A stretch of 46,510 nucleotides of DNA from a bacterium HR37 (GTDB taxonomy: Bacteria; Desulfobacterota_D; UBA1144; Nemesobacterales; CSP1-2). The DNA lies in assembly GCA_002898375.1 (NCBI GenBank), contig BEIN01000021.1, forward strand, positions 1 through 46,510. Direction: 5' to 3'. Positions 8,826 through 36,577 of the stretch are shown in pieces. The notes under the pieces are model-generated. The model searched no databases and was not told the DNA's origin. It worked only from the letters and a program-made list of their open reading frames with translations. The stretch's first letter is position 1; every line of letters starts with the position of its first letter. A program made the position numbers and the translations under genes.

Positions 8826-8836
8826 GTACTCTACCT
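8820..8836. terminator. Short hairpin between convergent nosL and CBS gene
   Basis: AGGTAG and CTACCT form a perfect 6-bp stem around GTACT, overlapping the nosL stop and the end of the opposing gene. It is short and has no T-run, so it is only a weak bidirectional terminator candidate. Confidence 0.3.
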
Positions 8837-9434
8837 AGCCACATTCCCCACCCTTAGATACGTTAACGCCAAGCTCCCTCTCTTTCAATTTCCTGTTCAG
8901 TTTATCGAAATCACAGTTAACAACCCAGAGGTAAAATACACCGGCTTCCTTTCCCGAAACAAAGGAAAGAACCCTCTCAGAACACATCTGAAAGACCTTT
9001 ATTACCTCAAGCACATCCGTTTCCTTATCGTGTACAAGAACCTTAACCCTAAGCGGTTCCTTCGATAAACCAAAGAGGTTTAGAAACCCATCAAGGATAT
9101 CGGTAACGGTTAAGATTCCAACCAGCCTTCCATCCCTTGAGATAACCGGGAGCGCATTAAACTTCTTATCGCGTATGATACGTGCGGCCTTCTCCAATGT
9201 TGTATCCTCAGATACCGTAATGGGCCTTTGTGTCATTACATCCGCTACCTTAAGCTCAGGACGGAAAAGGGCTAACCTTAGGTCTCTGTCCGTAACTATC
9301 CCTATAAGCCTGCCATCCCTAACCACCGGAAACTGACGAAAGCCGTGTTTTCTTAGCAGGTAAAAAGCATCTCTTACATTTTCTTCCGGTTCTATGGTTA
9401 CCGGATCAGGGGTCATACAGTTTCTAACAAGCAT
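8835..9434 (-). CDS. AcuB-like protein: two CBS domains plus C-terminal ACT-like domain
   Basis: The 199-residue cytoplasmic protein has two CBS motifs (about residues 1-60 with MTPDPVTIEPEENVRDA, and 65-125 with DVMTQRPITVSEDTTLEKA). Such pairs form one Bateman module that binds adenine nucleotides or related ligands. A 65-residue C-terminal part with alternating strands and helices recalls the ACT-like domain of AcuB proteins. ATG 9434 follows gggaggtg; a longer frame to 9491 would cross the sigma-54 promoter at 9473-9488. It is transcribed alone from that promoter, which has the 17-bp repeat (site E) upstream. Target protein unknown. Confidence 0.87.
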   Translation of the reverse strand: MLVRNCMTPDPVTIEPEENVRDAFYLLRKHGFRQFPVVRDGRLIGIVTDRDLRLALFRPELKVADVMTQRPITVSEDTTLEKAARIIRDKKFNALPVISRDGRLVGILTVTDILDGFLNLFGLSKEPLRVKVLVHDKETDVLEVIKVFQMCSERVLSFVSGKEAGVFYLWVVNCDFDKLNRKLKERELGVNVSKGGECG

Positions 9435-9472: not shown

Positions 9473-9488
9473 TGCAAAAAGGATGCCA
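9473..9488 (-). promoter_or_regulatory. Sigma-54 promoter of the AcuB-like CBS gene
   Basis: Read on the minus strand this is TGGCATCCTTTTTGCA, with GG and GC separated by exactly 10 bases. The predicted start point near 9462 leaves a short leader carrying gggaggtg before the ATG at 9434. Confidence 0.85.
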
Positions 9489-9538: not shown

Positions 9539-9555
9539 TGTAAGAAAATCTGACA
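9539..9555. promoter_or_regulatory. 17-bp inverted repeat (site E)
   Basis: TGTAAGAAAATCTGACA is a member of the six-copy repeat family. Its centre (9547) is 72 bp upstream of the GC of the sigma-54 promoter at 9473-9488, almost the same spacing as at sites A and C. Confidence 0.7.
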
Positions 9556-9562: not shown

Positions 9563-10003
9563 TCAGTTATCGTCTTTTTTACAAGTAGATGGCCTGTTAC
9601 CCTGGATCCAGGAAAGAAGGTCTATAAAATCGCCACACTTCTCCCTGAACTCACCATAACACATACAAACACTACCCATATAGTACATACACCTGGGACA
9701 CATCTCCGGAATAATTCCCCTATCCCACTTCAAGGAAGGCCTGCTCTTAGAATGGCCAAAGGACATACCAAAGCTGTATACATACCTGAAATTCGACTCC
9801 GACTGCTCATCATACCTACACCACACACACATCTGCCCACCCACCTCTCTTCTGACACCCTGGTAGAATGGACACATATTCATTCCCTGTTTTGCATGCC
9901 ACCTGGCAACACAGAAAGGACGGCTGATCGGACACCAAAGGGGCTTTATCCAGAATAGCGATTTATCCTCTCTTGGAGACATCCGATACCGTATGTGCAG
10001 CAT
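9563..10003 (-). CDS. Small cysteine-rich protein of unknown function
   Basis: I do not recognise this 146-residue protein. It holds eleven cysteines, grouped as CPISRPFC near residue 24, CVWC near residue 59 and CPRCMYYMGSVCMC near residue 102, and has no signal peptide or membrane segment. The pattern suggests zinc or iron-sulfur binding. Two candidate starts exist (10003 and 9982), neither with a good ribosome site. Upstream, at 10034-10061, are two tandem palindromes that look like an operator. It lies between the AcuB-like gene and sco on the same strand, but the operator and the gap suggest separate control. Confidence 0.6.
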   Translation of the reverse strand: MLHIRYRMSPREDKSLFWIKPLWCPISRPFCVARWHAKQGMNMCPFYQGVRREVGGQMCVWCRYDEQSESNFRYVYSFGMSFGHSKSRPSLKWDRGIIPEMCPRCMYYMGSVCMCYGEFREKCGDFIDLLSWIQGNRPSTCKKDDN

Positions 10004-12910: not shown

Positions 12911-13564
12911 TTAGAATCTAAAGCCAACCCTACCTCCAAATGTGGCAAAAGCACCGTTGTCTCTGTCCACCCAGTTAAAGCGACCTTCTGCACCCACAAA
13001 GACCTTCTCCGTTAGGTTAATATCCACTCCCCCACCCATATGGAGGCCAAGCTCGGCATTTCCCTGACCGGATGGAAAACCCCTCTCCCTAAGGGGATCA
13101 GGCTGAGGAGCTATACCACCCACAACATCACCCGGATCACTATCGTTTAGGAAGATATCTATTCCGGGACCGGCAACCACAAACGGTTGGATAATGGGAG
13201 AGGCAAGAAGCTTGTACTTAAGCCCAAGAACTATGGTAACGGTGGTAAGGTCAACGTTTACCTGGGTGGGAAGTGCTCCTGGCACCAGTGCATTTACAGT
13301 TGGCTCAAATGTAAAATCATCGTCGTTTTTTGCAAGCCCAATGTTAACCAAACCCAAAAGCCTGCCAGGTCCAATCTCAAGAAGGGGGATACCGATTTCA
13401 CCTGCAAGATACCATCCTGCATCGGTTTTAAATGGCCCAACCTGTGATCCCACAATGAGCGCAAACTCTCCACCCATACCCTCCTCAGAAACCCCTGTAC
13501 CCTCCCACATCAGGAAAGAAACCAAACCAAATATGGCAACAAAGAGAATCCTTACCCTTTTCAT
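12911..13564 (-). CDS. Outer-membrane beta-barrel protein
   Basis: The 217-residue protein has a signal peptide (about residues 1-26), no cysteines after it, alternating hydrophobic strands, and a C-terminal strand ending in ...GGRVGFRF, with the terminal Phe typical of outer-membrane barrels. It resembles small eight-stranded barrels (OmpW/opacity type), with no specific match claimed. The gene is the first after the sigma-54 promoter at 13606-13621 and ends 24 bases before the oxidase subunit IIa gene, so barrel, oxidase and SCO probably share one transcript. Confidence 0.85.
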   Translation of the reverse strand: MKRVRILFVAIFGLVSFLMWEGTGVSEEGMGGEFALIVGSQVGPFKTDAGWYLAGEIGIPLLEIGPGRLLGLVNIGLAKNDDDFTFEPTVNALVPGALPTQVNVDLTTVTIVLGLKYKLLASPIIQPFVVAGPGIDIFLNDSDPGDVVGGIAPQPDPLRERGFPSGQGNAELGLHMGGGVDINLTEKVFVGAEGRFNWVDRDNGAFATFGGRVGFRF

Positions 13565-13605: not shown

Positions 13606-13621
13606 TGCAATAAGAATGCCA
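13606..13621 (-). promoter_or_regulatory. Sigma-54 promoter of the OMP-ba3 oxidase-SCO operon
   Basis: The minus strand reads TGGCATTCTTATTGCA, GG and GC 10 bases apart. The predicted start near 13595 leaves a leader with aaaggaggtatgg ahead of the barrel gene start at 13564. Confidence 0.85.
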
Positions 13622-13682: not shown

Positions 13683-13699
13683 TGTCAAAAATTCTGACA
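13683..13699. promoter_or_regulatory. 17-bp inverted repeat (site B) with an extra outer half-site
   Basis: TGTCAAAAATTCTGACA has its centre 83 bp upstream of the GC of the promoter at 13606-13621. An extra half-site TGTCAGA precedes it at 13676, so the outer arms GGTGTCAGA and TCTGACACC also pair perfectly over 9 bp. Three half-sites are therefore present, enough for more than one dimer. Confidence 0.75.
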
Positions 13700-14550: not shown

Positions 14551-14970
14551 CTAGCCCTTTTCGTGCCTGCTCAGGGTAACAAAAGCCCCCAGTATATCGG
14601 ATGTGGTTATGATTCCACACAGCTTGCCGTCTTTTGAGATAACCGGAAGCCCGTTTATCCTGTGCCTTAGAAGAAGGGCCGCAGCCTCTTCAACAGGGGT
14701 ATCCTCGGAAACGGTTATAACCTCCATCGTCATTATATCACCCACACTGAGTTTCCCCTTAAGCCTGTAAACCTCTTCAAGTGAGGGCTCCGGGTGTTCC
14801 AGGGATGTTTTACCAAAGTCCTTCTCGGCCACAATACCAACCAACACCCCATCCTTTACAACAGGCAGTTGTCTTATCCTGTGCTTCCTAAGCAGCAAGA
14901 AGGCATCCTTTATGCTCATCTCGGGTTCCACGGTTATTACGTTTCTCTTCATCCAGTGTTTTACAAGCAC
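14551..14970 (-). CDS. CBS-domain pair protein (last gene of its operon)
   Basis: The 139-residue protein is a bare Bateman module: CBS 1 at about residues 1-60 (KRNVITVEPEMSIKDAFLLL), CBS 2 at 73-135 (GDIMTMEVITVSEDTPVEEA). It is most like the AcuB-like gene at 8835 in its first half but lacks the C-terminal domain. Modules like this sense adenine nucleotides or other ligands. It is the third gene of the operon that starts at 15729. Confidence 0.85.
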   Translation of the reverse strand: MLVKHWMKRNVITVEPEMSIKDAFLLLRKHRIRQLPVVKDGVLVGIVAEKDFGKTSLEHPEPSLEEVYRLKGKLSVGDIMTMEVITVSEDTPVEEAAALLLRHRINGLPVISKDGKLCGIITTSDILGAFVTLSRHEKG

Positions 14971-14985
14971 CTTGCACCTTCCTCT

Positions 14986-15252
14986 TTACTTTCTGAGGAT
15001 CTCAGACACCGTTAGAGATGAAACAGGGGAAATAGAAGAGGTACATTTTAACATCCCTGGCTCAAGAAACTTAACTATGCTTTCGTAGCTTTCCGTCTCC
15101 ACTATATAGATTATCTTGTGGGAGCCGTGCTCTACATACACATCCTTTAACTTGAGCCCATCAACGTTCTCATTTATAAATACCTTCCTAAACCCTCCTA
15201 TGTCCTTTGGACAATCCTGGGGGTTATGTGTTTGTGTTATTAAAAACAACAT
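14986..15252 (-). CDS. Small DUF3303-like protein (ferredoxin-like dimeric barrel fold)
   Basis: The 88-residue protein starts MLFLITQTHNPQDCPKD, a pattern I associate with DUF3303-type small alpha/beta proteins, and contains a ...FLEPGMLKCTSSISPV segment near the C-terminus. Function is unknown. It lies between two CBS genes with gaps of 15 and 21 bases, so it is co-transcribed with them from the sigma-54 promoter at 15766. Confidence 0.7.
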   Translation of the reverse strand: MLFLITQTHNPQDCPKDIGGFRKVFINENVDGLKLKDVYVEHGSHKIIYIVETESYESIVKFLEPGMLKCTSSISPVSSLTVSEILRK

Positions 15253-15273
15253 GATTTCCCTCCTTGCACTGTA

Positions 15274-15729
15274 CTAAAAAACCTTTGAAGTACTGCCCAG
15301 AACAGAAGCAAGATTGGAAAGCTCGGTAGCAACAACCACCACTATATCGTCAACCGATACGATGCCAACAAGCTTTTCTCCCCTAACAACTGGAACCCTT
15401 CTTATTGAGTTCCTGGCAAGAACCTCCAGTATGTCAAAAACATCCTCGTCTTCATCCACCGTAACCAGCTCCCTGCTTATCGGTTTTCTTAGCATAAGCT
15501 CTCCTACCGTCATCTCCTCCGGGTTCTTACGGTCAGCCACAGCAGAAACCACAATATCCCTGTCAGTTATTATGCCTATGGGCCTTCTCTCTTCATCCAC
15601 AACAACCACCGAACCCACATCCTCATTCCTCATAAGGATGGCAGCCTCCGTTACCGGGATAAGAGGAGAGACCGTTACAACCTCTGTTCTCATGATCTCC
15701 TTTGCACACATTGTTCTTTTTCCCTTCAT
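15274..15729 (-). CDS. CBS-domain pair protein (first gene of its operon)
   Basis: The 151-residue protein consists of two CBS motifs: residues about 8-65 (AKEIMRTEVVTVSPLIPVTEA, then GIITDRDIV) and 75-135 (GELMLRKPISRELVTVDEDED, then GIVSVDDIV). It is of the short type that acts as a regulatory subunit. The start has ggaggtatagagggtt upstream. It heads the operon CBS, DUF3303-like, CBS and lies behind a sigma-54 promoter and site D. Confidence 0.86.
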   Translation of the reverse strand: MKGKRTMCAKEIMRTEVVTVSPLIPVTEAAILMRNEDVGSVVVVDEERRPIGIITDRDIVVSAVADRKNPEEMTVGELMLRKPISRELVTVDEDEDVFDILEVLARNSIRRVPVVRGEKLVGIVSVDDIVVVVATELSNLASVLGSTSKVF

Positions 15730-15765
15730 AACCCTCTATACCTCCGGGCATCTACTTGGTGCTTT

Positions 15766-15781
15766 TGCAATTAGCATACCG
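15766..15781 (-). promoter_or_regulatory. Sigma-54 promoter of the CBS/DUF3303-like/CBS operon
   Basis: The minus strand reads CGGTATGCTAATTGCA. GG and GC are 10 bases apart and the TTGCA box is perfect; the -24 box is CGGTAT rather than TGGCAT, making it weaker than the others. The start would be near 15755, 26 bases before the ATG. Confidence 0.72.
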
Positions 15782-15863
15782 TTTAACCCACGCATACAAC
15801 ATCCTGTGATTACTGAGATTTTACACAAGATGGTTTAAAGGCACTCAAGTGTCCTGTGTCTGG

Positions 15864-15880
15864 TGTCAGAATATAGGACA
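15864..15880. promoter_or_regulatory. 17-bp inverted repeat (site D)
   Basis: TGTCAGAATATAGGACA keeps both TGTC and GACA ends. Its centre is 104 bp upstream of the promoter GC at 15768. A flanking GTGTCCT at 15849 and AGGACAC at 15875 form a second, wider inverted pair. The site overlaps the region just past the kinase stop. Confidence 0.65.
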
Positions 15881-15895
15881 CCCCTAAGGCAGGTA

Positions 15896-17476
15896 TCAAA
15901 GAAAGCGTTTGCTTACCACTTCACAGAGCGTATATGTTAAGGCATCTTCGAGATTCCCTTCGGTATCAACCGATATAAGAACCCGGGAAGAAAGTTCAGA
16001 GGGGCTTTCAAATTCTTCTTTAAACCTCTCAAAGATTTCAACTCTCCCATCGGATACAGCACTGCCTTCAATCTCTCTCTCAATTAGCCTTTTTCTTATA
16101 GCCTCATCAGAGGCCTTGGTCTCAATAAAATAAACCGGTACATTAAGTAAGTCTGCCTCACTGATAACACGCTTCCTGAAATGAGCCTTGGAAAAACTTG
16201 CATCGAGTATAACCACACCTCCGGATTCCACTATCCTCTTTCCTCTCTCCAGAAGCTCACTGTAGGTACGCTCGGTTACATCCCTTGAGTATATCCCCTC
16301 TCCAAACCCGCTGTACACCCTCTCAGTCGGAGCTATCCCCATAATCTCTTTTCTTATGCTATCCGAAGAGATAACAGCACACGAAAGCTCTTTAGAGAGC
16401 GCAGTTGCAAGCGTTGTTTTTCCGGTTCCTATAATGCCAAAGATAACGAAGAAAACAGGCATAGAGCCACAAACCGCATAGTTAAGTGCAAGCCTGAAAT
16501 ACTCCTTTGCCCTCTCCTTTGCCTTATTTCTCTCTTCTTCTGAGACCTCCTTGTCCTCACCCCGAAAACTCTCTACCTTGCCCCTAACGTAGGCCCTGTA
16601 GCACTTGTAGAATTCAATCACATCAAATATGGTCTCATCGTTCATCCTTCTTGATATCTCGGAAACAACGATTTTGGAAAGCTCTCTGTATCCGTTATAG
16701 TCCAGGTCCATGGAAAGAAAAGCCACATCAGAGGCAACATCTATATACCTAAACCTTTCGTTGAACTCTATACAGTCGTAAATACAGATACCTTCTGGAT
16801 TTAAATTTATGTGCTCCAGGTGAAGGTCCCCATGACAATCCCTTATAAACCCCCTTTTTACCCTCTCCTCAAATACACTGGATCTCCTCTCAAAGAAAAG
16901 GTCGTTATAGAGCCTTAGGGCAGAGAAGGCAGCCTTTGAAATCGTATCCCCAATAAAACACTCAGTCTGGGTAAAGTTCTCATCAACGTTAAACCTTATC
17001 TTATCGGGTTTTCCGAATTCGCTTATATACTCATTTGACCTCTGACTCCCGTAGAACTCAACCAGCTTGTCTACAACCCTTATAAAATCCTCCTCCCTAA
17101 CCCTGCCTTTAGAAAGGAGGTTTTTAAGAAAGTACTCTTCCGGTAATTCCCTCATCTTTACAGCATACTCCACAACCCTCCTCCCCCTACCGAAGGTAAG
17201 GCCCCCGTCAAGCTCGGATATTTCCTCAACCCCCAGGTATATATCACATAGCCGTCTGTTTAGCTCAACCTCTTTTTCACAGTAGTACCTTCTCTTCTCA
17301 AGGGTTGAGAAATCCAGAAACCCAAAATTCACCGGCTTCTTTACCTTATACACATAGGGAGATGCTATAAATACATGAGACACATGGGTCTGTATATGCC
17401 TTACCTGTCTTGGCCTGTGTGGATAAGAAGAAGGGTTTTTTAGAAATTCAATAAGTCTGAAGGATTCATCAGCCAT
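15896..17476 (-). CDS. Two-domain kinase: aminoglycoside phosphotransferase-like plus P-loop kinase
   Basis: The 526-residue cytoplasmic protein joins two kinase modules. The first (about residues 25-330) is protein-kinase-like with the catalytic HGDLHLEHI at 215-223 and the metal Asp at 234. The second (about 340-526) is a P-loop kinase with Walker A GIIGTGKTT at 347-355. This known fusion is annotated as bifunctional APH/ATP-binding protein; its substrate is unknown and antibiotic resistance should not be assumed. It is the last gene of the CBS-Usp-Usp-Usp-kinase operon, 12 bases behind the third Usp gene. Such kinases recur beside Usp genes in dormancy and low-oxygen regulons. Confidence 0.88.
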   Translation of the reverse strand: MADESFRLIEFLKNPSSYPHRPRQVRHIQTHVSHVFIASPYVYKVKKPVNFGFLDFSTLEKRRYYCEKEVELNRRLCDIYLGVEEISELDGGLTFGRGRRVVEYAVKMRELPEEYFLKNLLSKGRVREEDFIRVVDKLVEFYGSQRSNEYISEFGKPDKIRFNVDENFTQTECFIGDTISKAAFSALRLYNDLFFERRSSVFEERVKRGFIRDCHGDLHLEHINLNPEGICIYDCIEFNERFRYIDVASDVAFLSMDLDYNGYRELSKIVVSEISRRMNDETIFDVIEFYKCYRAYVRGKVESFRGEDKEVSEEERNKAKERAKEYFRLALNYAVCGSMPVFFVIFGIIGTGKTTLATALSKELSCAVISSDSIRKEIMGIAPTERVYSGFGEGIYSRDVTERTYSELLERGKRIVESGGVVILDASFSKAHFRKRVISEADLLNVPVYFIETKASDEAIRKRLIEREIEGSAVSDGRVEIFERFKEEFESPSELSSRVLISVDTEGNLEDALTYTLCEVVSKRFL

Positions 17477-17488
17477 TATACCCTCCTG

Positions 17489-18385
17489 TTAAGGATTTAG
17501 AACAAGAACAGAGCAGGGAGAATCCGAGATGACCTTTTCCGTAACGCTTCCAAGAACAAGCCTCTTTACACCTTTTCTCCCGTGTGTACCCATAGATATA
17601 AGGTCTATATCATGGGTCAGGGCATAGTCTATTATACCAAGATACGGATTTGTTGCGTAAACCACATCGGTTCTGATATCAACCCCTTCTCCCTTCTCAA
17701 GACTTATCCGCTCCACCCTCCTTCTGAGTTCCTTAGCAGAGAGCTCTCTTAAATCCCTTATTACACTGTGAGGAAAATCGTATTCATACATATGCAAACT
17801 GAGAACATATAAAACGTGTAAAACTGCATTTAACGTCTTTGCAAACTCTATAGTATAACCAAGTACCGAATCCAACCTCTCAGATATATCAAGCGGAACG
17901 AGTATGTTTCCTATGCCCTCTTCTCCCTTACCATTCCTCCTTTTGGCAACAAATACGGGTATTTTTGACCTTCTTAAGACCTTAATTGTTGTGCTTCCAA
18001 CAAGCACGGTGTTAACAAGACCCCTTCCCCGTTTGCCCATAACTATAAGGTCAACCCCGTTGTCAGCAGCGTACTTTAGGATCTCTTTATCCGGCTCGTT
18101 CCTGCACACATATCCTTTAAAAGAAACACCCTGTGCCTTTAGCTCCTCTCCAATTGAGGCAAACTCCTTATTGTAATCCTCTTCCACCCTGTCCAGAATG
18201 CTGTAGATATCTATCTGCGGATGTCTCCTCAGGTACTCGTATAGGAGCCTTCTTGTAAGTACAACCACATGAATTCCAAGGATCTCCGAGCCAAATCTCC
18301 TTGCCAGAAAAACCGTATGGTTAAGAGCTGCTTTTGCCTCCTCTGAACCATCATATGCCCAGAGAATCTTTTCTATCTTAATCAA
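17489..18385 (-). CDS. Tandem universal stress protein (two UspA domains)
   Basis: The protein has two UspA domains, about residues 1-150 and 160-298, each with the ATP-binding Gly loop (GKRGRGLVNTVLVGSTT and GTHGRKGVKRLVLGSVTE). I chose the TTG at 18385, which follows gggggaagg and places IKIEKILWAYDGS at the N-terminus as in its neighbours; a longer frame to 18457 would overlap the previous gene by 46 bases. It is the third of three Usp paralogues in tandem. Confidence 0.85.
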   Translation of the reverse strand: MIKIEKILWAYDGSEEAKAALNHTVFLARRFGSEILGIHVVVLTRRLLYEYLRRHPQIDIYSILDRVEEDYNKEFASIGEELKAQGVSFKGYVCRNEPDKEILKYAADNGVDLIVMGKRGRGLVNTVLVGSTTIKVLRRSKIPVFVAKRRNGKGEEGIGNILVPLDISERLDSVLGYTIEFAKTLNAVLHVLYVLSLHMYEYDFPHSVIRDLRELSAKELRRRVERISLEKGEGVDIRTDVVYATNPYLGIIDYALTHDIDLISMGTHGRKGVKRLVLGSVTEKVISDSPCSVLVLNP

Positions 18386-18411
18386 GGCCTTCCCCCAGGA
18401 TACAACCAAGC

Positions 18412-19323
18412 TCACTGTGAGGTGGCTGTTTGAGATTTTATGGCCAGAACCGGGCATGGAGCCTCATTTATAACCTTTTCAGCCACACTGCCAAGAATAA
18501 GTCCCAATATTCCCTTTCTCCCGTGAGTGGGCATAACGATAAGGTCAACACCTTCCTGCCCTGCAAACTCCACAACTGAATGCCATGCACTGAGAGAGAA
18601 AGAAACCCTTTCCTGAAAGTCTAGAGAGCGGTATTCTTCCCCTACCTCCTCAATATAGGTTCTGAGTTTTATAAGAGCATGTCTTTCAAGTGACTCTATA
18701 ATACTCGGTGGGGAAAGCTCATAGTGATGACGAAGCTCTACCACATGCAGGAGATAGAGTGTTGGGCAATTAAAGTTAAGAGCCAGATCAGAGGCAACCT
18801 TTAAAGAAGCCCGCGTTACCTCTGATAAATCTGTGGGGACAAGAATCTTCCTTATCTTTACATCCTCTCCGTAACCCTCCCTTCTCCTTACGGCCAAAAC
18901 GGGAATCCTTACCGTCCTTAAAACCTTTATCGTGTTACTCCCAAGAAGAATCCTGTCCTTAATCCCCAAACCCCTTTTTCCCATAACTATTAAATCAACA
19001 CCTTCCTCCTCTGAAACCCTTATTATCTCCTCATAGGGGATACCAACCTCAACACGTATAACCCTTCTATCGCCTGCAATCCCGATTTCACCCAAAGCAC
19101 GAACCATTCTCTCATATTCCTTCCTCTCAATTACCAGCTGTGTAGAGATAAGCTCTCTCTGTACTTCGGGAGGAACACCAAGCATGGCAAAGTCCACAGG
19201 CTCAATAACGCTTAAAGCAACCACAACGGAGTTATACCGGTCTGCAATTAGCCTCACATACTTAAGGGCTTCGCTTGACTCATCAGAGCCATCTGTTGCC
19301 CAGAGAATCTTATTAAAGTGCAT
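18412..19323 (-). CDS. Tandem universal stress protein (two UspA domains)
   Basis: The 303-residue protein starts MHFNKILWATDGSDES and has two UspA domains with Gly loops GKRGLGIKDRILLGSNT and PTHGRKGILGLILGSVAE, so ATP binding is expected in both. It has a good ribosome site (gggaggtgg). Its gene lies 19 bases behind the previous Usp gene, inside the sigma-54 operon starting at 20698. Confidence 0.9.
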   Translation of the reverse strand: MHFNKILWATDGSDESSEALKYVRLIADRYNSVVVALSVIEPVDFAMLGVPPEVQRELISTQLVIERKEYERMVRALGEIGIAGDRRVIRVEVGIPYEEIIRVSEEEGVDLIVMGKRGLGIKDRILLGSNTIKVLRTVRIPVLAVRRREGYGEDVKIRKILVPTDLSEVTRASLKVASDLALNFNCPTLYLLHVVELRHHYELSPPSIIESLERHALIKLRTYIEEVGEEYRSLDFQERVSFSLSAWHSVVEFAGQEGVDLIVMPTHGRKGILGLILGSVAEKVINEAPCPVLAIKSQTATSQ

Positions 19324-19342
19324 AAACCACCTCCCAGACCAC

Positions 19343-20212
19343 CTATACCACCGGATTTAAGGTTATCACAGGGCAAGGTGATTCCTGAACAACCCTTTCG
19401 GTAACACTGCCTATAAAATCGTTTTTAAACTTTCTTCCCCCATAGGTTGTAATTACAATCAGGTCTATATCTTCAGCAGCAGAGAAATTAACTATGCCTG
19501 TATAGGCGTTTCTTGCCACTTCTACATGTGCTTTTATATCCGCTTCTCCACTGAGTTTAGCCCTTCCAAGATTTTCAAGAATGCTCTTCTGGGAATAAAG
19601 CTTCATTCCCTCGGTTATCTCTGGTGGGAACCTGCACTCCCCTACTTCAACGACATTTAGAACATAAACAACCGCTTTAAACTTTTTCGACAGCCAAAGT
19701 GCAAACTCGAGATTTTTGTGCTTATGGTGAGACAGATCCATCGGGACTAGTATCTTACGTATATCCAGTTTATCCTTTGCCTTTCCAACCGTAAGAACTG
19801 GGCACTTAGAACCCCGTATAACCTTTAGCGAGGTGCTACCAAGGGTTTGTCCCGCTTTGGCCCTTCCCCTACCCAGAGCAATAAGCCCTACCTTTTCCCT
19901 ATCTGAAACCTCAAGAATCTCCTTATCTGGTATACCTGTGGAAACAATTATCTTAAAGCTTATTCCCTTTGCCCTCATCTCACCCTCAATGTCCTTTAAC
20001 CTCTTCTCTTCTGCCTCCCTTACCCCTTTAATCCAGTCCTCAAATCTTTTCTTCTCCTCTGATGAAAAACCCTCCACAACCTCAGGGTAATCCGGTATAA
20101 CACACAGGCCAACAACACCAGCATTAAGTCTCCTTGCAAAAAGCTCTACATACCTTAACGCCTCAAGTGAATCCTCAGAGCCATCCGTTGCCCAGAGAAT
20201 CTTCTGAATCAT
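19343..20212 (-). CDS. Tandem universal stress protein (two UspA domains)
   Basis: The 289-residue protein starts MIQKILWATDGSEDS. Its first Gly loop is shortened (GRGRAKAGQTLGSTS) and its second is TTYGGRKFKNDFIGSVTE, departing from GxxG in the usual place, so nucleotide binding may be altered relative to its two neighbours. Ribosome site taaggaggagc. It is the first Usp gene after the CBS gene in the operon. Confidence 0.9.
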   Translation of the reverse strand: MIQKILWATDGSEDSLEALRYVELFARRLNAGVVGLCVIPDYPEVVEGFSSEEKKRFEDWIKGVREAEEKRLKDIEGEMRAKGISFKIIVSTGIPDKEILEVSDREKVGLIALGRGRAKAGQTLGSTSLKVIRGSKCPVLTVGKAKDKLDIRKILVPMDLSHHKHKNLEFALWLSKKFKAVVYVLNVVEVGECRFPPEITEGMKLYSQKSILENLGRAKLSGEADIKAHVEVARNAYTGIVNFSAAEDIDLIVITTYGGRKFKNDFIGSVTERVVQESPCPVITLNPVV

Positions 20213-20272
20213 TAGCTCCTCCTTACCCTGTTTTTAACTTGAAACAAAACACCCCCAAAAAGAGCCCTGCTA

Positions 20273-20698
20273 TTAAACATTTGGCTCCACCCTCTCGATT
20301 ATGTTTGCTATATCAGCCAGCTCCTTACCCAAAAGACGAACAATATCATCAACGGTAATAATACCCACCAATTTCCCCTCCGAATCCACAACAGGGAACC
20401 TCCTTACCCCCTTTCCCTTCATATACTCAAGAGCCTCAATAAGCCCCATATCCTCCCTAAGGGTGAGGATGTTGCTGCTTATTACATCATCAACATAGAT
20501 CTGGGCTGGGTTTAGATCCTCGTTTATTACCCTTATAACAATGTCTCTGTCGGTTACTATACCTATAGGCTTTCTCTCCTTATCAACAACCACCACACTA
20601 CCCACATTCTTATCGTGCATGATCTGGGCTATTTCCTTAATAGTTGTTCCAAGATTCACCCAGACAACCTCTCTACGACACAGTTTCCCAACGCTCAT
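20273..20698 (-). CDS. CBS-domain pair protein heading the Usp-kinase operon
   Basis: The 141-residue protein contains two CBS motifs, about residues 5-62 (GSVVVVDKERKPIGIVTDRDIV) and 72-130 (GVRRFPVVDSEGKLVGIITVDDIV). It resembles the CBS protein at 15274 more than the AcuB-like types. It is the first gene downstream of the sigma-54 promoter at 20750 and 60 bases ahead of the first Usp gene. An adenylate-charge sensor for the operon's Usp proteins or kinase is a reasonable guess. Confidence 0.86.
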   Translation of the reverse strand: MSVGKLCRREVVWVNLGTTIKEIAQIMHDKNVGSVVVVDKERKPIGIVTDRDIVIRVINEDLNPAQIYVDDVISSNILTLREDMGLIEALEYMKGKGVRRFPVVDSEGKLVGIITVDDIVRLLGKELADIANIIERVEPNV

Positions 20699-20749
20699 GA
20701 TACCTCTCCTTTTATCTTTTAGTATCCAGCTACCTAATTATATCAGTAA

Positions 20750-20765
20750 TGCAATAGGCATGCCA
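20750..20765 (-). promoter_or_regulatory. Sigma-54 promoter of the CBS-Usp-Usp-Usp-kinase operon
   Basis: The minus strand reads TGGCATGCCTATTGCA, GG and GC 10 bases apart, a near-perfect RpoN site. The predicted start is near 20739, about 40 bases upstream of the CBS start codon at 20698. Confidence 0.85.
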
Positions 20766-20884
20766 AACAAATTATCCCAGCAAAAGGAGAAGGCCTTCTA
20801 TGGTATAGCCAGGTTTTTAGCTTTAAAAATACCCTCTTACAAGCAAGCCCTCTCCCAGGGATAACTTGATAAAGGGGGAAGAAT

Positions 20885-20901
20885 TGTCAGAAAATAAGAC
20901 A
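20885..20901. promoter_or_regulatory. 17-bp inverted repeat (site F)
   Basis: TGTCAGAAAATAAGACA is the least symmetrical member of the family but keeps TGTC and GACA at the right spacing. Its centre is 141 bp from the promoter GC at 20752, the longest distance of the six, and it lies just past the MAT stop codon. Confidence 0.6.
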
Positions 20902-23878: not shown

Positions 23879-24025
23879 ATGAAAACCAGAGAGAGGATAC
23901 AGATAAAGGTAAGGAAACCTGTCCCCAAAAAACCAACAAGGATTATCCTTTCAAAGAAGGAAAAACTCAGCAGAAAGAGGATAAAACACAGAGAGCTCCT
24001 TAAAGAGGTTTTTGAGAAATACTAA
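23879..24025 (+). CDS. Small basic protein of 48 residues ahead of the PRT-HPF pair
   Basis: A frame from ATG 23879 to TAA 24025 encodes 48 residues beginning MKTRERIQIKVRKPV and ending EVFEKY. Over a third of the residues are Lys or Arg, so RNA or ribosome contact is plausible. A ggag lies about 10 bases before the start. The stop comes 22 bases before the phosphoribosyltransferase start, so it likely shares a transcript with that gene and HPF. I know no family for it, and at this length chance cannot be excluded. Confidence 0.55.
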   Translation: MKTRERIQIKVRKPVPKKPTRIILSKKEKLSRKRIKHRELLKEVFEKY

Positions 24026-24047
24026 ACAGCTTAAGGAGAAAAACCAG

Positions 24048-24734
24048 ATGAACTTTAGAGAAAGGATCTTTAAAGACAGGCACGAAGCAGGAAAAAGGCT
24101 TGCTGAAAGGCTAAAAAAATATAGTAATCTGGATGATGTGGTAGTTCTTGCACTTCCACGAGGTGGTGTTCCTGTAGCCTTTGAGGTTGCAAAATCCATC
24201 GGAGCTCCTCTTGATGTTTTTATAACACGAAAGCTAAGGTTTCCAGATGAACCCGAGCTTGCCCTGGGTGCACTTGCCGAAAACGGAGAGGTATTCCTGA
24301 ATAAGGAACTGGTTCAGTACTGTCCGGAAAGCTATATAGAGAAGGAAAAAGAGTATCAATGGGAAGAGATAAAACGCCGCCAGCTTGCATACAGAAACGG
24401 AAAAGGGCTTCCCCCACTGGAAGGGAAGGTGGTTATTCTTATAGACGACGGAGTTGCTACAGGAGCAACAATGATAGCCACAATACATGCGCTTAGAGCT
24501 TCAGGTGTTAGAAGGATAGTGGTTGCAGTTCCGGTTGCTCCCCCTGAAACAGCCGAGGAACTTCTAAGACTTGCCGACGAACTCATTGTACTTTATACTC
24601 CTTCACCTTTCTTTGCCGTTGGTATGTATTACTCAGATTTTAGGCAGCTCTCCGACGCAGAGGTCAGAGAGTACCTTGAGCAAGCAAGGTTCTTTACGGA
24701 GAAGAAAGCCCACAAAATGGAGGTGCAGGCATGA
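24048..24734 (+). CDS. Phosphoribosyltransferase-family protein (COG1926 type)
   Basis: The product (228 residues) has a type I phosphoribosyltransferase fold with the PRPP-binding loop VVILIDDGVATGATM and an N-terminal LALPRGGVPVAFEVA segment. The family is predicted to act on nucleobases or related compounds, but no substrate is established. ATG 24048 has ttaaggag ahead of it. Its stop overlaps the HPF start by 4 bases. Proteins of this family often accompany Usp and HPF genes in stress regulons, as they do here. Confidence 0.87.
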   Translation: MNFRERIFKDRHEAGKRLAERLKKYSNLDDVVVLALPRGGVPVAFEVAKSIGAPLDVFITRKLRFPDEPELALGALAENGEVFLNKELVQYCPESYIEKEKEYQWEEIKRRQLAYRNGKGLPPLEGKVVILIDDGVATGATMIATIHALRASGVRRIVVAVPVAPPETAEELLRLADELIVLYTPSPFFAVGMYYSDFRQLSDAEVREYLEQARFFTEKKAHKMEVQA

Positions 24735-25285
24735 AGATAGAGTTTATAGGTAAAGGTATAGACATCTCTGATGAGATTAAAAGCTACGTTGAGCATAAGT
24801 TCTCCACGTTTGAACGCCACCTTAAGGAAGTAGGCGAGGGAGAGGTTGAGGTTATTGTAACCTTCACAGTGGAGAAACACAGACAACGCCACCGTGTAGA
24901 TATAGATGTATACCTTAAAACACCTGGTGGAGGTGCCCTCCACGCTTGGGAAGAAAGCAACGACATATACATGTCTTTGGAGTTTGCACTTGAGGATATA
25001 GAAAGACAGCTCCACAGGTTGAAAGAAAGAAGACTTGAGCAGAGAAAAGAGATAGCAAGAGAGAAGGAAAAAGAAAAGAGCCTGTCTCAGGAATCCCCAA
25101 CCACCCCACTTGATCTCGTGGTTGAAGAGAAACTCCCTGTGGACAAACCGCTTAACGTTGAGGAAGCGCTATACGTGTTACAAGATGAGGGGAGATTTTT
25201 TCTACCCTTTGTAAATGCAGAAACCGGACAGATAAACATAGTTTACAGGAAAAAAAGCGGGAAATACGGTCTTATCTCCCCTTAA
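24731..25285 (+). CDS. hpf: Long-form ribosome hibernation promoting factor
   Basis: HPF stops translation by pairing idle 70S ribosomes. The 184-residue protein has the N-terminal RaiA/HPF domain (about 1-100; FIGKGIDISDEIKSYVEHK and the DIYMSLEFALEDIERQL helix) and a C-terminal dimerisation domain (about 130-184; EALYVLQDEGRFFLPFVNAETG) found in the long form, joined by a charged linker. It overlaps the phosphoribosyltransferase gene by ATGA. The next gene converges 5 bases away. Confidence 0.94.
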   Translation: MKIEFIGKGIDISDEIKSYVEHKFSTFERHLKEVGEGEVEVIVTFTVEKHRQRHRVDIDVYLKTPGGGALHAWEESNDIYMSLEFALEDIERQLHRLKERRLEQRKEIAREKEKEKSLSQESPTTPLDLVVEEKLPVDKPLNVEEALYVLQDEGRFFLPFVNAETGQINIVYRKKSGKYGLISP

Positions 25286-27964: not shown

Positions 27965-29737
27965 ATGAAACTATCACAAAATGCCATAAGGGTTTTAGAA
28001 GCAAGATACCTTAGAAGGGATAGCAACAGAAGAATTATAGAAACGCCTGAAGAGCTTTTTCAAAGGGTTGCAAAAAGCATAGCATACACTGAACTTCTCC
28101 TTGGCAAACCAAAAGAAACCACGTACTGGGAGGAACAGTTCTTTGGTATGCTATCCTCTCTTGATTTCCTTCCCAACTCACCGACTCTTATGAACGCTGG
28201 AACACCTCTTGGCCAGCTAAGCGCGTGTTTTGTCCTTCCTGTGGAAGACACAATGGAGGATATATTTGAAGCCATAAAACAGATGGCTCTTATTCAGAGA
28301 ACAGGTGGAGGCACAGGTTTTTCCTTCTCAAGGCTAAGGCCAAAGGGCTCAGTGGTAGCCTCAACAGGTGGAGAATCCTCAGGGCCTGTATCATTTATGA
28401 AGATATTTGACTGCGCAACAGAATACATCAAACAGGGAGGAAAAAGAAGAGGAGCCAACATGGGCGTTTTGAGAGTAGATCATCCAGATATTATGGAGTT
28501 CATAACGGCAAAACTAGAGGAGGGAACGCTTAGAAACTTTAACCTCTCGGTTGGTATAACAGACCACTTTATGGAGGCCCTAAAGAAAGATACAAAATAT
28601 GAGCTTATTAACCCGCAAACAAAAAAGACCGTTCGTAAGGTAAAGGCAAAAGAGGTTTTTGATAAGATAACGGAGTCAGCCTGGGCTTCAGGTGACCCAG
28701 GGCTTCTCTTCCTTGATACCATAAACAAAAAACACCCACTTTGCGAGATTGGAGAGATTGAGGCCACAAACCCCTGTGGGGAACTGCCACTTCTTCCCTA
28801 CGAAAGCTGTAACCTGGGTTCCATAAACCTGTCCAACATGGTAGAAGAAAAAGACAACAAAACCAGTATAGACTGGGAAAAACTAAAAGGCACGGTACAC
28901 AAAGCGGTCCGTTTTCTTGACAACGTTATAGAGGTTAACAGGTTTCCACTTCCCCAGACGGAATCGGTTACAAAAAACAACAGGAAGATAGGACTTGGGG
29001 TCATGGGGTTTGCCGAGATGCTGATTAAACTTGGGATTCCATATGACTCAGAAAAAGCTGTAAAAACAGCTGAGAGGGTTATGTCCTTTATACATCAGGA
29101 GGCGGTAAAGACCTCCATGGAGCTTGCGGAAGAAAGAGGGGTTTTTCCAAACTGGCACCGAAGCACCCACTTCAGGGAAAAAAGAAAAATGCGCAATGCA
29201 ACGGTTACCTCCATAGCTCCCACAGGAACCATAAGCATAATTGCTGGAACCACATCGGGTATAGAACCGATGTTTGCCCTTGCCTACAGAAGAACCCATG
29301 TACTTGAGAATCAGTCTCTTGTAGAGATTAATCCCATATTCCTTGACTATCTTAGAGAATACGGATTATACAGCGATACCCTAGTAGAAGAGCTTGTTGA
29401 AAAAGGAACCCTAAAAGATGTAAAAGGGATACCTGAGTATCTAAAGAGCCTATTTGTTACCGCCTTGGAGATACCATACGAACAGCATATAAAAATCCAG
29501 GCCGCTTTTCAAAAGTATGTTGACAACTCGGTATCAAAGACAATAAACATGCCAGAGGAAGCTACGGTAGAAGATGTAAGGAGGGCATACCTTCTTGCAT
29601 ATGAGCTGGGGTGCAAGGGTATAACGGTATTCAGATACGGGTCAAGAAGAGAGCAGGTTCTTGAATTAGGGGCAAAGGAAGAGGTATTTGAAAAGGAGTA
29701 CTTCTCCAAATGCGACCCTCATGCCTGCAAACTCTAA
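27965..29737 (+). CDS. nrdJ: NrdJ, adenosylcobalamin-dependent ribonucleotide reductase (class II)
   Basis: The 590-residue enzyme makes deoxyribonucleotides with a B12-derived radical, so it works with or without oxygen. Visible are NSPTLMNAG and the redox Cys 88 in LSACFV, NPCGE with the radical Cys 271 at residues 269-273, and Cys 282 in ESCNLGSINL. A C-terminal CDPHAC can serve as the re-reducing Cys pair. It is a single gene; the next gene converges 9 bases after the stop. Confidence 0.95.
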   Translation: MKLSQNAIRVLEARYLRRDSNRRIIETPEELFQRVAKSIAYTELLLGKPKETTYWEEQFFGMLSSLDFLPNSPTLMNAGTPLGQLSACFVLPVEDTMEDIFEAIKQMALIQRTGGGTGFSFSRLRPKGSVVASTGGESSGPVSFMKIFDCATEYIKQGGKRRGANMGVLRVDHPDIMEFITAKLEEGTLRNFNLSVGITDHFMEALKKDTKYELINPQTKKTVRKVKAKEVFDKITESAWASGDPGLLFLDTINKKHPLCEIGEIEATNPCGELPLLPYESCNLGSINLSNMVEEKDNKTSIDWEKLKGTVHKAVRFLDNVIEVNRFPLPQTESVTKNNRKIGLGVMGFAEMLIKLGIPYDSEKAVKTAERVMSFIHQEAVKTSMELAEERGVFPNWHRSTHFREKRKMRNATVTSIAPTGTISIIAGTTSGIEPMFALAYRRTHVLENQSLVEINPIFLDYLREYGLYSDTLVEELVEKGTLKDVKGIPEYLKSLFVTALEIPYEQHIKIQAAFQKYVDNSVSKTINMPEEATVEDVRRAYLLAYELGCKGITVFRYGSRREQVLELGAKEEVFEKEYFSKCDPHACKL

Positions 29738-30281: not shown

Positions 30282-30298
30282 TGTCAGAAATTCGGACA
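30282..30298. promoter_or_regulatory. 17-bp inverted repeat (site C) with an extra half-site, ahead of the regulator operon
   Basis: TGTCAGAAATTCGGACA has its centre 71 bp upstream of the GC of the sigma-54 promoter at 30348-30363. A further GACA at 30303 extends the element: ATGTGTCAGA (30279-30288) and TCTGACACAT (30300-30309) pair perfectly over 10 bp. Three half-sites are thus present, as at site B. The promoter it serves leads to the kinase and activator genes, implying autoregulation. Confidence 0.75.
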
Positions 30299-30347: not shown

Positions 30348-30363
30348 TGGTATGAATATTGCT
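30348..30363 (+). promoter_or_regulatory. Sigma-54 promoter of the GNAT-kinase-regulator operon
   Basis: TGGTATGAATATTGCT has GG and GC exactly 10 bases apart and fits TGGYAY-N5-TTGCW with a slightly weak -24 box. The predicted start is near 30374, so the downstream acetyltransferase should begin at 30382 rather than at the longer-frame start at 30313. Confidence 0.75.
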
Positions 30364-30381: not shown

Positions 30382-30963
30382 ATGATTGTATACCCAAAAG
30401 AGATCATCCTAAGGGATAAAAGACGCATAATCCTTAGGCCTCTTGAAGAAAGGGATATCGAGAGGTTGATTGCATTTTTCTCAAAGATACCGAGCTCTGA
30501 CCTTATAATCTACAAAGACGATGTAAGCAGGTGGGAGACTGTGGAGAGCTGGTTTATAAGCCCTAAATATACAAAGGTCTTTCAACTGGTTGCACTTAAG
30601 GATGAGGAAATAGTTGCAAAGGGAACACTCCACCAAGAAGGCCTTTACTGGAAAAACACCGCAGAGATAAAGCTAATAGTACACCCAGAGTACAGGGGGA
30701 AAGGGCTTGGCTCTCAAATGTTTAGGATTCTGTTGACCGAGGGATTAAACCACCGCTTTGAAAAGATAGTTGTTCGGTTTACCTCTGACAACACCAGCTT
30801 TATAAGGATACTTGACCGTTTTGGTTTTAAACCAGAAGCAGTTCTAAGGTGTTATGTAAAGGACGAAGAAAGCGGTCAATACAAAGACCTTGTTGTTGCA
30901 ACCTACAGCTTTGAGGACTGGATGAAGAGGTTTGAACTCTACAGGTTCCTCTATGGTAAATAG
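30382..30963 (+). CDS. GNAT acetyltransferase
   Basis: From ATG 30382 the product is 193 residues with the GNAT fold: LRPLEERDIERL at the start, the acetyl-CoA loop VHPEYRGKGLGSQM, and FTSDNTSFIRILDRFGFKPEAV. The substrate may be a protein lysine, since similar proteins act in that way, but this is not shown. The start was placed after the predicted sigma-54 transcription start, which leaves only a short leader with no clear ribosome site. It is 52 bases ahead of the histidine kinase gene and probably in its operon. Confidence 0.75.
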   Translation: MIVYPKEIILRDKRRIILRPLEERDIERLIAFFSKIPSSDLIIYKDDVSRWETVESWFISPKYTKVFQLVALKDEEIVAKGTLHQEGLYWKNTAEIKLIVHPEYRGKGLGSQMFRILLTEGLNHRFEKIVVRFTSDNTSFIRILDRFGFKPEAVLRCYVKDEESGQYKDLVVATYSFEDWMKRFELYRFLYGK

Positions 30964-31015: not shown

Positions 31016-32932
31016 ATGAAGGGCGAAAAAGAGAGGATAGAAGAGCTAACAAAGGAGATAGAATCATTAAAAGAGACATTGCATCAAAAGGAATACAGCG
31101 AAAGACTTTTTCGTGTCATTGTTGAGTCAATACCCGCTGGTATAGTGATTACGGACAGGAACGGAAACATTAAGTTTGTTAACTCTAGGGTAGAAAAGAT
31201 GTTCGGGTATAAGAAGAATGAACTGATCGGTAAACCAGTAGAAATACTTATTCCTCAAAGGTTTAGAAACACCCACTTGATCTACCGTAAGGACTACTAC
31301 TCCAGACCCCAGGCAAGACCAATGGGTGCAGGTAGAGACCTCTTTGCGCTAAGGAAAGACGGTAGCGAGTTTCCAGTTGAGATCGGGCTTACCCCCATAT
31401 CCTTTAACGGAGACCTTATGGTTCTTAGCTCAATAGTGGATATAACAGAACGCAAACGCATAGAAAGAGAGCTCATTAAGGAAAGGGAAAAAGCGCAACG
31501 CTACCTCGATATAGCCGATGTCATCATAGTGGCACTAAACCGCAAGGGTGAAGTAGAGCTTATAAACCAGAAAGGCTGTAGGGTTCTTGGCTACCCGGAA
31601 GAGGAAATTATAGGGAAGAACTGGTTTAAAAACTTTGTCCCCCAATCAGCCAGAGAAGAAGCGGAGGAGGTATTTAAAAGGATACTTCAGGGAGAGCCCC
31701 ATTCCTTCAAATACCTTGAAACACCAATTACTACAAGAACAGGTCAGGAAAGACTGATTGCCTGGCATAACACGGTTCTAACAGATGATAGCGGCAACAC
31801 TGTAGGTACACTCAGTTCGGGAGAAGACATTACCGAGCGAAAGCAGACAGAAAAAGCCCTTCGTGAAAGTGAGGAGAAGCTACTTGCCATAATGAATAAC
31901 ACCACCGATGCCATACTGGTCTATGATGAGAACGGAAATATAACAACCATGAACAGGGAAGCGCACAAACTGTTTTGCGGAGACAAAAGAAAAGAACTGA
32001 AAACGGTATGGGAAATAATTCCCGTTGAGGAGAGGGAGAACTTTAAGGAGATACTAAAAAGCGTAAAAATGGGTAAAAGGCTTGTAGACCACGAAATGGA
32101 AAAGCTGTTGGCTCCGGATAAAAGGATAACGGTGAGCATAGGGCTTGTCTACATAGATGAGGCAGATGGTGGATTTGTTGAGACTATAAGGGACATAACC
32201 GAAAGGATAATGCTTAGGAACAAGATACTCGATATAGAAAAGGCCCAGGTGGTTGGAAAGATGGCAGAGGGCATTGCCCATCACATGGGTACCCCCCTTG
32301 CATCCATGTTGCTTAGAGTCCAGATGTTAAAGGAAGACATAACAAAGGTTCCTGATCACAGAGGCTTTCTTGATAAACTGGATTCAATAGAAAGGCAGAT
32401 CTTCTACACCCAGAAGGTAATCCAGAAGCTTCTTAAGTTTGTAAGGCAACCTGAAAATGAAAGACGTCCAGAAAACGTATATACCCTTATCGAAGAAGCC
32501 CTAGACATGATAAAGCCGTTTTTAAGCAAACGTGGGATAGAATTTAAACTCCACGTTGATAAGAACACCAAGGTACTTGCCGATGGAAACCTTTTAGAGC
32601 TCGTTTTCTCTGATATCATAATGAACGCGGTAGATGCCATGCCAAAGGGGGGGACAATTCTTATAGAGAGCTCAAGATACGATAAGACGGTTGTTGTAAG
32701 GATATCGGATACGGGAACGGGAATTCCAAGGCAAATTCTACCCCTTGTGTTTGAACCCTTCTTCTCAACCAAACCAGCTGGAAAGGGAACAGGCCTTGGT
32801 CTTGCAGTGGCAAAGAGGGTAATCCACGATCACGGAGGAGAGATCAACCTGGACAGTGAAGAGGGCAAGGGAACCAGTGTATTTATAAAGCTTCCAGTAT
32901 ACGAGGAGGAAGGAAAAAGTGCACAGATGTAA
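31016..32932 (+). CDS. Soluble three-PAS sensor histidine kinase
   Basis: The 638-residue protein has no membrane segment. It has an N-terminal coiled coil (1-28), PAS 1 (about 30-145), PAS 2 (160-275), PAS 3 (285-395), a HisKA domain with GIAHHMGTPL (likely phospho-His 422) and an ATPase domain with the N box (NAVDAM, 537-542), G1 (DTGTGIP) and G2 (GKGTGLGLA). PAS 1 has His 87 in RNTHLIY and Arg 107 in MGAGRD, like FixL positions, so haem or gas sensing is possible but unproven. The residue after the phospho-His is His rather than the usual Glu. The gene overlaps the response regulator by 14 bases. Confidence 0.9.
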   Translation: MKGEKERIEELTKEIESLKETLHQKEYSERLFRVIVESIPAGIVITDRNGNIKFVNSRVEKMFGYKKNELIGKPVEILIPQRFRNTHLIYRKDYYSRPQARPMGAGRDLFALRKDGSEFPVEIGLTPISFNGDLMVLSSIVDITERKRIERELIKEREKAQRYLDIADVIIVALNRKGEVELINQKGCRVLGYPEEEIIGKNWFKNFVPQSAREEAEEVFKRILQGEPHSFKYLETPITTRTGQERLIAWHNTVLTDDSGNTVGTLSSGEDITERKQTEKALRESEEKLLAIMNNTTDAILVYDENGNITTMNREAHKLFCGDKRKELKTVWEIIPVEERENFKEILKSVKMGKRLVDHEMEKLLAPDKRITVSIGLVYIDEADGGFVETIRDITERIMLRNKILDIEKAQVVGKMAEGIAHHMGTPLASMLLRVQMLKEDITKVPDHRGFLDKLDSIERQIFYTQKVIQKLLKFVRQPENERRPENVYTLIEEALDMIKPFLSKRGIEFKLHVDKNTKVLADGNLLELVFSDIIMNAVDAMPKGGTILIESSRYDKTVVVRISDTGTGIPRQILPLVFEPFFSTKPAGKGTGLGLAVAKRVIHDHGGEINLDSEEGKGTSVFIKLPVYEEEGKSAQM

Positions 32933-34294: not shown

Positions 34295-34738
34295 TTACTG
34301 CTTTGCTTCCTCATACCTTACCACAAGAACAGGACAAGGCGAAGAGAAAATCACCTTGTGACTTGTGGTTCCTATGGCAATCTGACCTGTCTCAGTTTTT
34401 AATCCATGAGAGCCCATTACAATAAGGTCTATGCTCTTTTCTTTTGCAAATGTATTTATAACCCGCCAGCGTGGTCCTATAACTATACTTGCCTGGACAT
34501 GAAAACCTCTCTGCTCGAATATCCTTTTTTCATCCTCTATTTTCCTCTCCATCTGCATTTCAAGCTCTCTATAGAACTCCTTTATTTCCTCATCTATGTC
34601 AGGATAATCAAGTGGCTCTATAACATGGAGTATATACATGCTGGCACCAAGCTTCTCACCCAAGTAGAGTGCATACTCCCTTGCTTTCTCCGAGTATATA
34701 GAAAAATCCGTAGGGAATAGAATCCTCTCTATTTTCAT
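34295..34738 (-). CDS. Single-domain universal stress protein
   Basis: From ATG 34738 (with taggaggtataggg upstream) the product is 147 residues: one UspA domain starting MKIERILFPTDFS and ending with the Gly loop GSHGLKTETGQIAIGTTSHKV. It is shorter than the tandem Usp proteins at 17489-20212. No sigma-54 promoter or 17-bp repeat lies upstream, so it may be controlled differently. It converges with the response regulator gene, with a possible hairpin (AAAGCAG/CTGCTTT) between them. Confidence 0.88.
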   Translation of the reverse strand: MKIERILFPTDFSIYSEKAREYALYLGEKLGASMYILHVIEPLDYPDIDEEIKEFYRELEMQMERKIEDEKRIFEQRGFHVQASIVIGPRWRVINTFAKEKSIDLIVMGSHGLKTETGQIAIGTTSHKVIFSSPCPVLVVRYEEAKQ

Positions 34739-36571: not shown

Positions 36572-36577
36572 CCCATC

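Follow-up and report, generated by a model that had tools for sequence, protein, structure and literature searches.

The window analyzed here is one whole contig (C21, 46.5 kb) of the 2.42-Mb genome of an uncultured Dadabacteria bacterium; no named Dadabacteria strain was found in the literature consulted. At positions 14551-20901, on the minus strand, it carries two operons for CBS-pair proteins, double Usp proteins, and a kinase, and a stand-alone AcuB-like gene lies on the same strand. Operon 1 (20698 to 15896) encodes one CBS-pair protein, then three double-Usp proteins and the kinase; operon 2 (15729 to 14551) encodes a CBS pair, a DUF3303 protein, and a second CBS pair. All the genes that an earlier note on this DNA had named were found, namely those for four CBS-pair proteins, three double-Usp proteins, and one APH/P-loop kinase. 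The two operons quite likely belong, as one arm, to a Dadabacteria regulon for low-oxygen/nitrogen-oxide respiration, in which a FixL-like kinase would act through an NtrC-type regulator.

20885-20901, minus: operator of operon 1, palindrome TGTCTTATTTTCTGACA
20750-20765, minus: sigma-54 promoter of operon 1, TGGCATGCCTATTGCA, -24/-12 pattern; operator 119 nt away
20273-20698, minus: operon 1, CBSa, CBS-pair protein; nucleotide loop motifs GIVTDRD and GIITVDD; PDB relatives MJ1225 and Rv2626c
19343-20212, minus: operon 1, double Usp protein A; ATP motifs degenerate
18412-19323, minus: operon 1, double Usp protein B; N domain with an intact ATP motif
17489-18457, minus: operon 1, double Usp protein C; both domains with an intact ATP motif; the actual start probably lies further downstream
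15896-17476, minus: operon 1, APH-like kinase domain (N-terminal half) fused to an AAA_33 P-loop kinase domain
15864-15880, minus: operator of operon 2, palindrome TGTCCTATATTCTGACA
15766-15781, minus: sigma-54 promoter of operon 2, CGGTATGCTAATTGCA, -24/-12 pattern
15274-15729, minus: operon 2, CBSb, CBS-pair protein
14986-15252, minus: operon 2, DUF3303 small protein; 77% identity among family members
14551-14970, minus: operon 2, CBSc, CBS-pair protein
9539-9555, minus: operator of the AcuB-like gene, palindrome TGTCAGATTTTCTTACA
9473-9488, minus: sigma-54 promoter of the AcuB-like gene, TGGCATCCTTTTTGCA, -24/-12 pattern
8835-9434, minus: AcuB-like CBS-pair protein, stand-alone; the open reading frame (ORF) opens at 9491, and the ATG at 9434 is more likely the start

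Operator-Promoter Units

Side-by-side comparison of the upstream regions gave a 17-bp palindrome, TGTCaGAnnnTCtGACA. It lies upstream of the promoter of both operons and of the AcuB-like gene, at an operator-to-promoter distance of 50-119 nt, and the stretch 14551-20901 ends exactly where the operon-1 operator ends. The three copies of the same sigma-54 promoter and repeat reported in the earlier note (at 20765, 15781, and 9488) are real, each with its palindrome. However, three further sites in the window, which belong to an outer-membrane protein (OMP) gene, the nosZ operon, and a regulator operon, had been missed.

13683-13699, minus: operator of the OMP gene, palindrome
13606-13621, minus: sigma-54 promoter of the OMP gene, TGGCATTCTTATTGCA, -24/-12 pattern
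12911-13564, minus: outer-membrane beta-barrel protein; COX2, COX1, and SCO genes next, on the same strand
1609-1625, plus: operator of the nos operon, palindrome TGTCCGATTATCTGACA
1677-1692, plus: sigma-54 promoter of the nos operon, TGGCATATAAATTGCA, -24/-12 pattern
1725-2108, plus: c-type cytochrome-like protein, first gene of the nos operon; CxACH motif in the sequence
2111-4120, plus: NosZ, Sec-dependent nitrous-oxide reductase; NosD, ABC, and NosL genes next, up to 8825
30282-30298, plus: operator of the regulator operon (autoregulation), palindrome TGTCAGAAATTCGGACA
30348-30363, plus: sigma-54 promoter of the regulator operon, TGGTATGAATATTGCT, -24/-12 pattern

With at most one mismatch, the palindrome occurs 12 times genome-wide against four times for the reversed pattern, which served as the control for both the palindrome and the joint operator-promoter pattern; six of the 12 copies are on the window contig. 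A sigma-54 site follows 49-122 nt downstream in 10 of the 12 copies, while 4.6% of random places have such a site within 30-160 nt (P ~2.5e-12 for 10/12). The window itself has six palindrome-promoter pairs, whereas 100 dinucleotide shuffles yielded none. From the excess over the control, the adjacency of promoters, and the empty shuffles, it follows that the pairing is not due to chance. Shared control of the CBS, Usp, and kinase genes is well supported; one such unit precedes operon 1, operon 2, and the AcuB-like gene alike. One of the two exceptions, the palindrome on contig C26, has a variant promoter, TGGCAC-N5-TTGA, 78 nt on. Outside the window, units precede a divergent NarG-like/hemerythrin operon pair (C31), an operon for an HNH-repeat and a radical-SAM protein (C1), a CBS pair (C6), and a small unknown gene (C10).

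The requirements of a sigma-54 system are present together, i.e., -24/-12 promoters, palindromes upstream, and RpoN encoded in the genome. As to the operator itself, those of NorR (GT-N7-AC), NifA (TGT-N10-ACA), and DNR/FNR were compared, and none fits the TGT-N11-ACA arrangement found here. Two RpoN-like genes were seen (G000:C15:36050-36520 and C7:7020-7445); the second is weaker and lies in a 233-aa frame.

Conservation and Extent of the Regulon

The unit was followed through 57 genomes of the host's class and 329 genomes outside it. The strict joint pattern, defined as the palindrome followed after 46-76 nt by TGGYAY-N5-TTGC, gave 77 matches in 22 of the 57 class genomes, three in the 329 outside genomes, and none in the reversed control. 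Among 2.9 million viral contigs, 23 scattered matches to the joint pattern appeared, which were taken as background. The logo of 64 sites is sharp at TGTC..A and T..GACA, and a weak third half-site often comes after it. In both families f1 and f3, operator-promoter pairs precede CBS-Usp-kinase operons.

The list of first genes behind the units has 64 entries, mainly from Dadabacteria; palindromes with two mismatches and a few out-of-class matches were admitted, so not all 64 are strict. CBS proteins account for 14 of them, and others are c-type cytochromes, FixO-like proteins, FixI-like copper ATPases, Hsp20, Usp, FeoB, acetate kinase, and citrate synthase. tRNA-editing genes also belong to the regulon in relatives. 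The tie to respiration suggested in the earlier note is well supported, as in this genome the same unit drives nosZ, the NarG-like gene, and the hemerythrin gene, and in relatives it drives genes for cbb3/copper ATPase and for Hsp20.

The CBS, Usp, and Kinase Proteins

The genome's seven Usp domains all lie on the window contig, whereas its CBS domains are scattered over many contigs. The nucleotide loop of CBS domains (G-h-h-T/S-x-x-D) is intact in seven of the eight domains, the first loop of CBSc having an Ala. In the PDB, CBSa matches Rv2626c with an E-value of 1e-10, and UspB matches Rv2623/TB31.7 weakly (8e-4).

The kinase has an APH catalytic loop, a preserved Walker A motif, and both folds of an APH-like and AAA_33 kinase. 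Its APH half has no match to a Pfam APH family and was recognized by fold and by an HGDLH...D loop. Residues H215, G216, D217, D234, G352, and K353 of the APH loop and Walker A are invariant in an alignment of 33 sequences, from which rows with a stop codon were left out. The AF2 model (pLDDT 92.8) consists of two domains whose folds match APH and gluconate/APS kinases. In the genome collection, Candidatus Dadabacteria is the name given to relatives with 53-64% identity, several of which are entered under older names; in Dadabacteria the gene adjoins Usp genes, plus CBS genes where the contig permits. The family extends over many phyla, and Usp or CBS neighbors are mostly absent; among the named non-Dadabacterial loci examined, linkage of kinase, Usp, and CBS genes was not found, apart from one Usp neighbor in G077.

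The best reading is that these proteins form the energy-conservation arm of the low-oxygen/nitrogen-oxide regulon. They probably bind ATP or AMP, to judge from their motifs, and slow or re-tune energy-costly processes when respiration is limited. Their roles are the least certain part of the best explanation. The claim of the earlier note that the regulon links respiratory status to energy charge stands as far as respiration is concerned; its energy-charge part, which draws on family knowledge and on the motifs of seven of eight CBS and three of seven Usp domains, is plausible.

In the strongest alternative, energy charge is not sensed at all: the CBS and Usp proteins would serve in general stress or as chaperone-like proteins, and the kinase would be a metabolite kinase or one linked to tRNA. 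Three observations fit this alternative: the Usp ATP motif is degenerate in four of seven domains, members of the kinase family are common where no Usp or CBS genes are nearby, and Hsp20 and tRNA-editing genes share the regulon in relatives. Against it stand the CBS loops, intact in seven of eight domains, and the fact that the DosR-controlled Usp Rv2623 acts via ATP binding (PMC2682197). We give it a substantial chance, somewhat short of even.

A PAS Histidine Kinase as Candidate Oxygen Sensor

The operon under the autoregulatory unit encodes three proteins.

30382-30963, plus: GNAT acetyltransferase; start by ortholog alignment, the ORF opening at 30313
31016-32932, plus: soluble histidine kinase with three PAS domains, the first FixL/DosP-like with His87 and Arg107
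32919-34268, plus: NtrC-type response regulator with receiver, AAA+ domain with GAFTGA, and Fis helix-turn-helix (HTH); proposed activator of all these promoters

Hydropathy indicates a soluble kinase, which is composed of three PAS domains, HisKA, and HATPase. In a single-sequence search of solved structures, its first PAS domain (PAS1) matched the haem-PAS domains of FixL and DosP with E-values of 1e-14 to 1e-15. A profile of 12 orthologs matched them at 1e-15 to 1e-20, and the next solved PAS domains at 2e-6; one exception among the top matches is the uncharacterized kinase structure 10jx. His87 aligns with the haem ligand His200 of FixL and is invariant in all 16 orthologs that cover the position. 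Arg107 aligns with the O2-stabilizing Arg220 and is invariant in all 17 covering orthologs. This invariance is kept even though the number of other PAS domains varies among orthologs. The roles of the haem-ligand His (His200; His194 in S. meliloti) and of the distal Arg in FixL have been described (PMC10765370; PMC4263535). PAS1 thus has the sequence characters of a FixL-like haem-PAS, i.e., closest similarity to FixL/DosP, the proximal His, and the distal Arg. Because of this match and this conservation, PAS1 is predicted to be a haem sensor of O2; sensing of nitric oxide (NO) or redox is a possible alternative. We infer that PAS1 carries haem, that it reads O2 rather than NO or redox, and that a fall in O2 is the activating direction.

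The same regulon and regulator might serve denitrification rather than oxygen, with NO, nitrite/nitrate, or quinone redox as the signal read by the PAS domains. Indeed, nosZ and the NarG-like gene are among the targets, in Brucella the haem-binding NtrY of NtrYX has been linked with both denitrification and redox sensing (PMC9409073), and NorR provides a case of NO-responsive sigma-54 control (PMC1274295). However, FixL and DosP, with which PAS1 groups, are O2 sensors, and PAS1 retains the O2-stabilizing Arg; the hemerythrin, FixO/FixI-like, Hsp20, and acetate-kinase targets are in keeping with hypoxia; and the operator differs from that of NorR. We regard this alternative as unlikely.

The NtrC-Type Regulator and a Proposed Mechanism

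The regulator has the receiver, the sigma-54 AAA+ domain with GAFTGA, and the Fis HTH that define the NtrC type. Its orthologs, with 72-82% identity, occur in 18 of the 57 class genomes, and paralogs reach at most 47%. The joint operator-promoter unit is present in all 18 genomes with an ortholog. The excess of operators over the control per genome is +6.1 with an ortholog vs. +0.7 without (Mann-Whitney 4.6e-6). The GNAT-kinase-regulator operon has its own operator and promoter in this genome and in at least nine relatives, and it stands back to back with a double-Usp gene in some of them. The HTH segment GISRDTLYRK is identical across orthologs. Because of the co-occurrence, the autoregulation, and the identical HTH, the regulator is the likely activator of the palindrome promoters; co-occurrence and autoregulation point to its binding the palindrome. 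That another of the eleven strong NtrC-type sigma-54 activators of the genome binds the operator, the kinase-regulator pair being merely one target, is improbable in view of the same autoregulation and the 18 of 18 genomes, even if the link between regulator and operator is drawn from sequence patterns.

The preferred reading, a low-oxygen/nitrogen-oxide regulon, would work as follows. When O2 falls, the FixL-like haem-PAS kinase would phosphorylate the regulator, which would then bind the palindrome and drive sigma-54 RNA polymerase at a -24/-12 promoter 50-120 nt away. Genes for nitrous oxide (N2O) and nitrate reduction, an oxidase, copper/haem accessory proteins, and the regulator's own operon would be turned on. 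The CBS, double-Usp, and APH/P-loop kinase proteins would be co-induced with the respiration genes, bind ATP/AMP, and retune or slow costly processes as long as respiration is limited.

Several observations weigh against this reading. Family f7 has a regulator with 63% identity and hardly any sites. The His/Arg signature may be common to PAS domains that bind no haem, and the FixL-like PAS is one of three in the kinase. The full Usp ATP motif, G-2x-G-9x-G(S/T), is kept in a minority of the Usp domains (3/7). The operon-1 operator lies 119 nt from its promoter vs. the usual 50-77 nt, and helical phasing of the operator-promoter spacing was looked for and not supported.

The best-matching NCBIfam models for the kinase and the regulator were AtoS and AtoC, which scored far below their cut-offs and were not adopted. 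In the out-of-class genome G166 (L303, L308), two 55%-identical copies of the regulator occur with PAS kinases and without the operator pattern. In the relative G002 (L210:2689-3654), a sigma-70-family factor lies behind an operator-like site with two mismatches, suggesting a sigma cascade.

Relation to Known Systems

The closest known system is NmpRSTU of Myxococcus xanthus. In both cases haem sensing, here predicted, leads to an NtrC-type regulator, with a palindromic operator, sigma-54, and autoregulation, and the targets in common are a CBS protein, a Usp protein, a P-type ATPase with cbb3 oxidase, and hemerythrin (PMC11841059). However, NmpRSTU employs a protoglobin sensor kinase and a hybrid relay kinase, whereas the adjacent kinase here is a single soluble one with PAS, HisKA, and HATPase only; the operator of NmpRSTU is a paired GCGCA-N5-TGCGC, which TGTCaGAnnnTCtGACA is not. 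The targets in Dadabacteria extend further, to denitrification genes, many CBS/double-Usp genes, and the APH/P-loop kinase.

The likeness to the hypoxic dormancy regulon of mycobacteria, raised in the earlier note together with a different control system, holds for the gene set and the difference in control, while the mechanism is closer to NmpR and FixL. The regulons of DosR/DosS/DosT and of OsdR in Streptomyces have haem sensor kinases and include Usp, the CBS protein Rv2626c, Rv2004c, and nitrogen-metabolism genes (PMC5309233; PMC2682197; PMC5069765). A DosR-like set (Usp, CBS, and nitrogen-metabolism genes) is present under one switch in Dadabacteria; the hypoxia response itself is a proposal. 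The control differs, as an NtrC-type sigma-54 activator with an unrelated operator and a PAS kinase take the place of the NarL-type regulator and GAF-haem kinases; DosR is a convergent system. The DosR regulon also lists NrdZ and a phosphoribosyltransferase (PMC5309233). In the window, genes for a phosphoribosyltransferase, the S30AE ribosome-hibernation protein (HPF), and the B12-dependent ribonucleotide reductase NrdZ (24012-25285 and 27965-29737) have no operator, and they were excluded from the regulon despite this likeness.

With FixL-FixJ and DosP the system shares a PAS domain with haem-ligand His and distal Arg, and FixO/FixI-like targets in relatives, but the partner is an NtrC-type sigma-54 regulator instead of FixJ. 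NtrYX and NorR are likewise sigma-54-family regulators tied to nitrogen-oxide respiration, and Brucella NtrY binds haem (PMC9409073; PMC1274295). However, the present kinase is soluble and has no NtrY membrane part, the regulator has a receiver domain, unlike NorR, and the operator differs.

The Dadabacteria regulon is probably a new version of the low-oxygen survival programs known from mycobacteria and myxobacteria. Tentatively, and with a little less confidence than doubt, we propose that it represents an undescribed form of oxygen control, in which a FixL-type haem-PAS kinase would act via an NtrC/sigma-54 activator, and a phylum-wide regulon would couple N2O/nitrate respiration to an adenine-nucleotide-sensing CBS/Usp/kinase module; it would then be a counterpart to the dormancy regulon of mycobacteria that arose independently. 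Usp/CBS/kinase sets recur under unrelated low-oxygen switches (DosR, NmpR, and the Dadabacteria regulon), and this recurrence argues for a common energy-conservation output. The small, probably thermostable proteins of the operons are suited to testing that idea. Thermophilic Dadabacteria carrying nosZ have been reported (PMC5877337), and the operator, regulator, and targets described here give a concrete basis for working out when Dadabacteria reduce N2O.

Neighboring Genes and Other Operons

34295-34777, minus: single Usp protein, without operator here; adjoins the kinase operon in the relative G005

This gene and two alpha/beta hydrolase genes occupy 34295-38637 on the minus strand, 14 kb from the kinase operon and without an operator; in G005 (L095) the same genes adjoin the kinase operon. 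At 9563-10003, minus, a Cys-rich 146-aa ORF with no Pfam match separates the SCO gene from the operator of the AcuB-like gene. At L204:3102-4698, the first gene of an operator-controlled operon encodes a 146-aa HNH_repeat protein (PF18780; homing-endonuclease-associated), and the operon also encodes a radical-SAM protein; two relatives have similar first genes (L084, L263).

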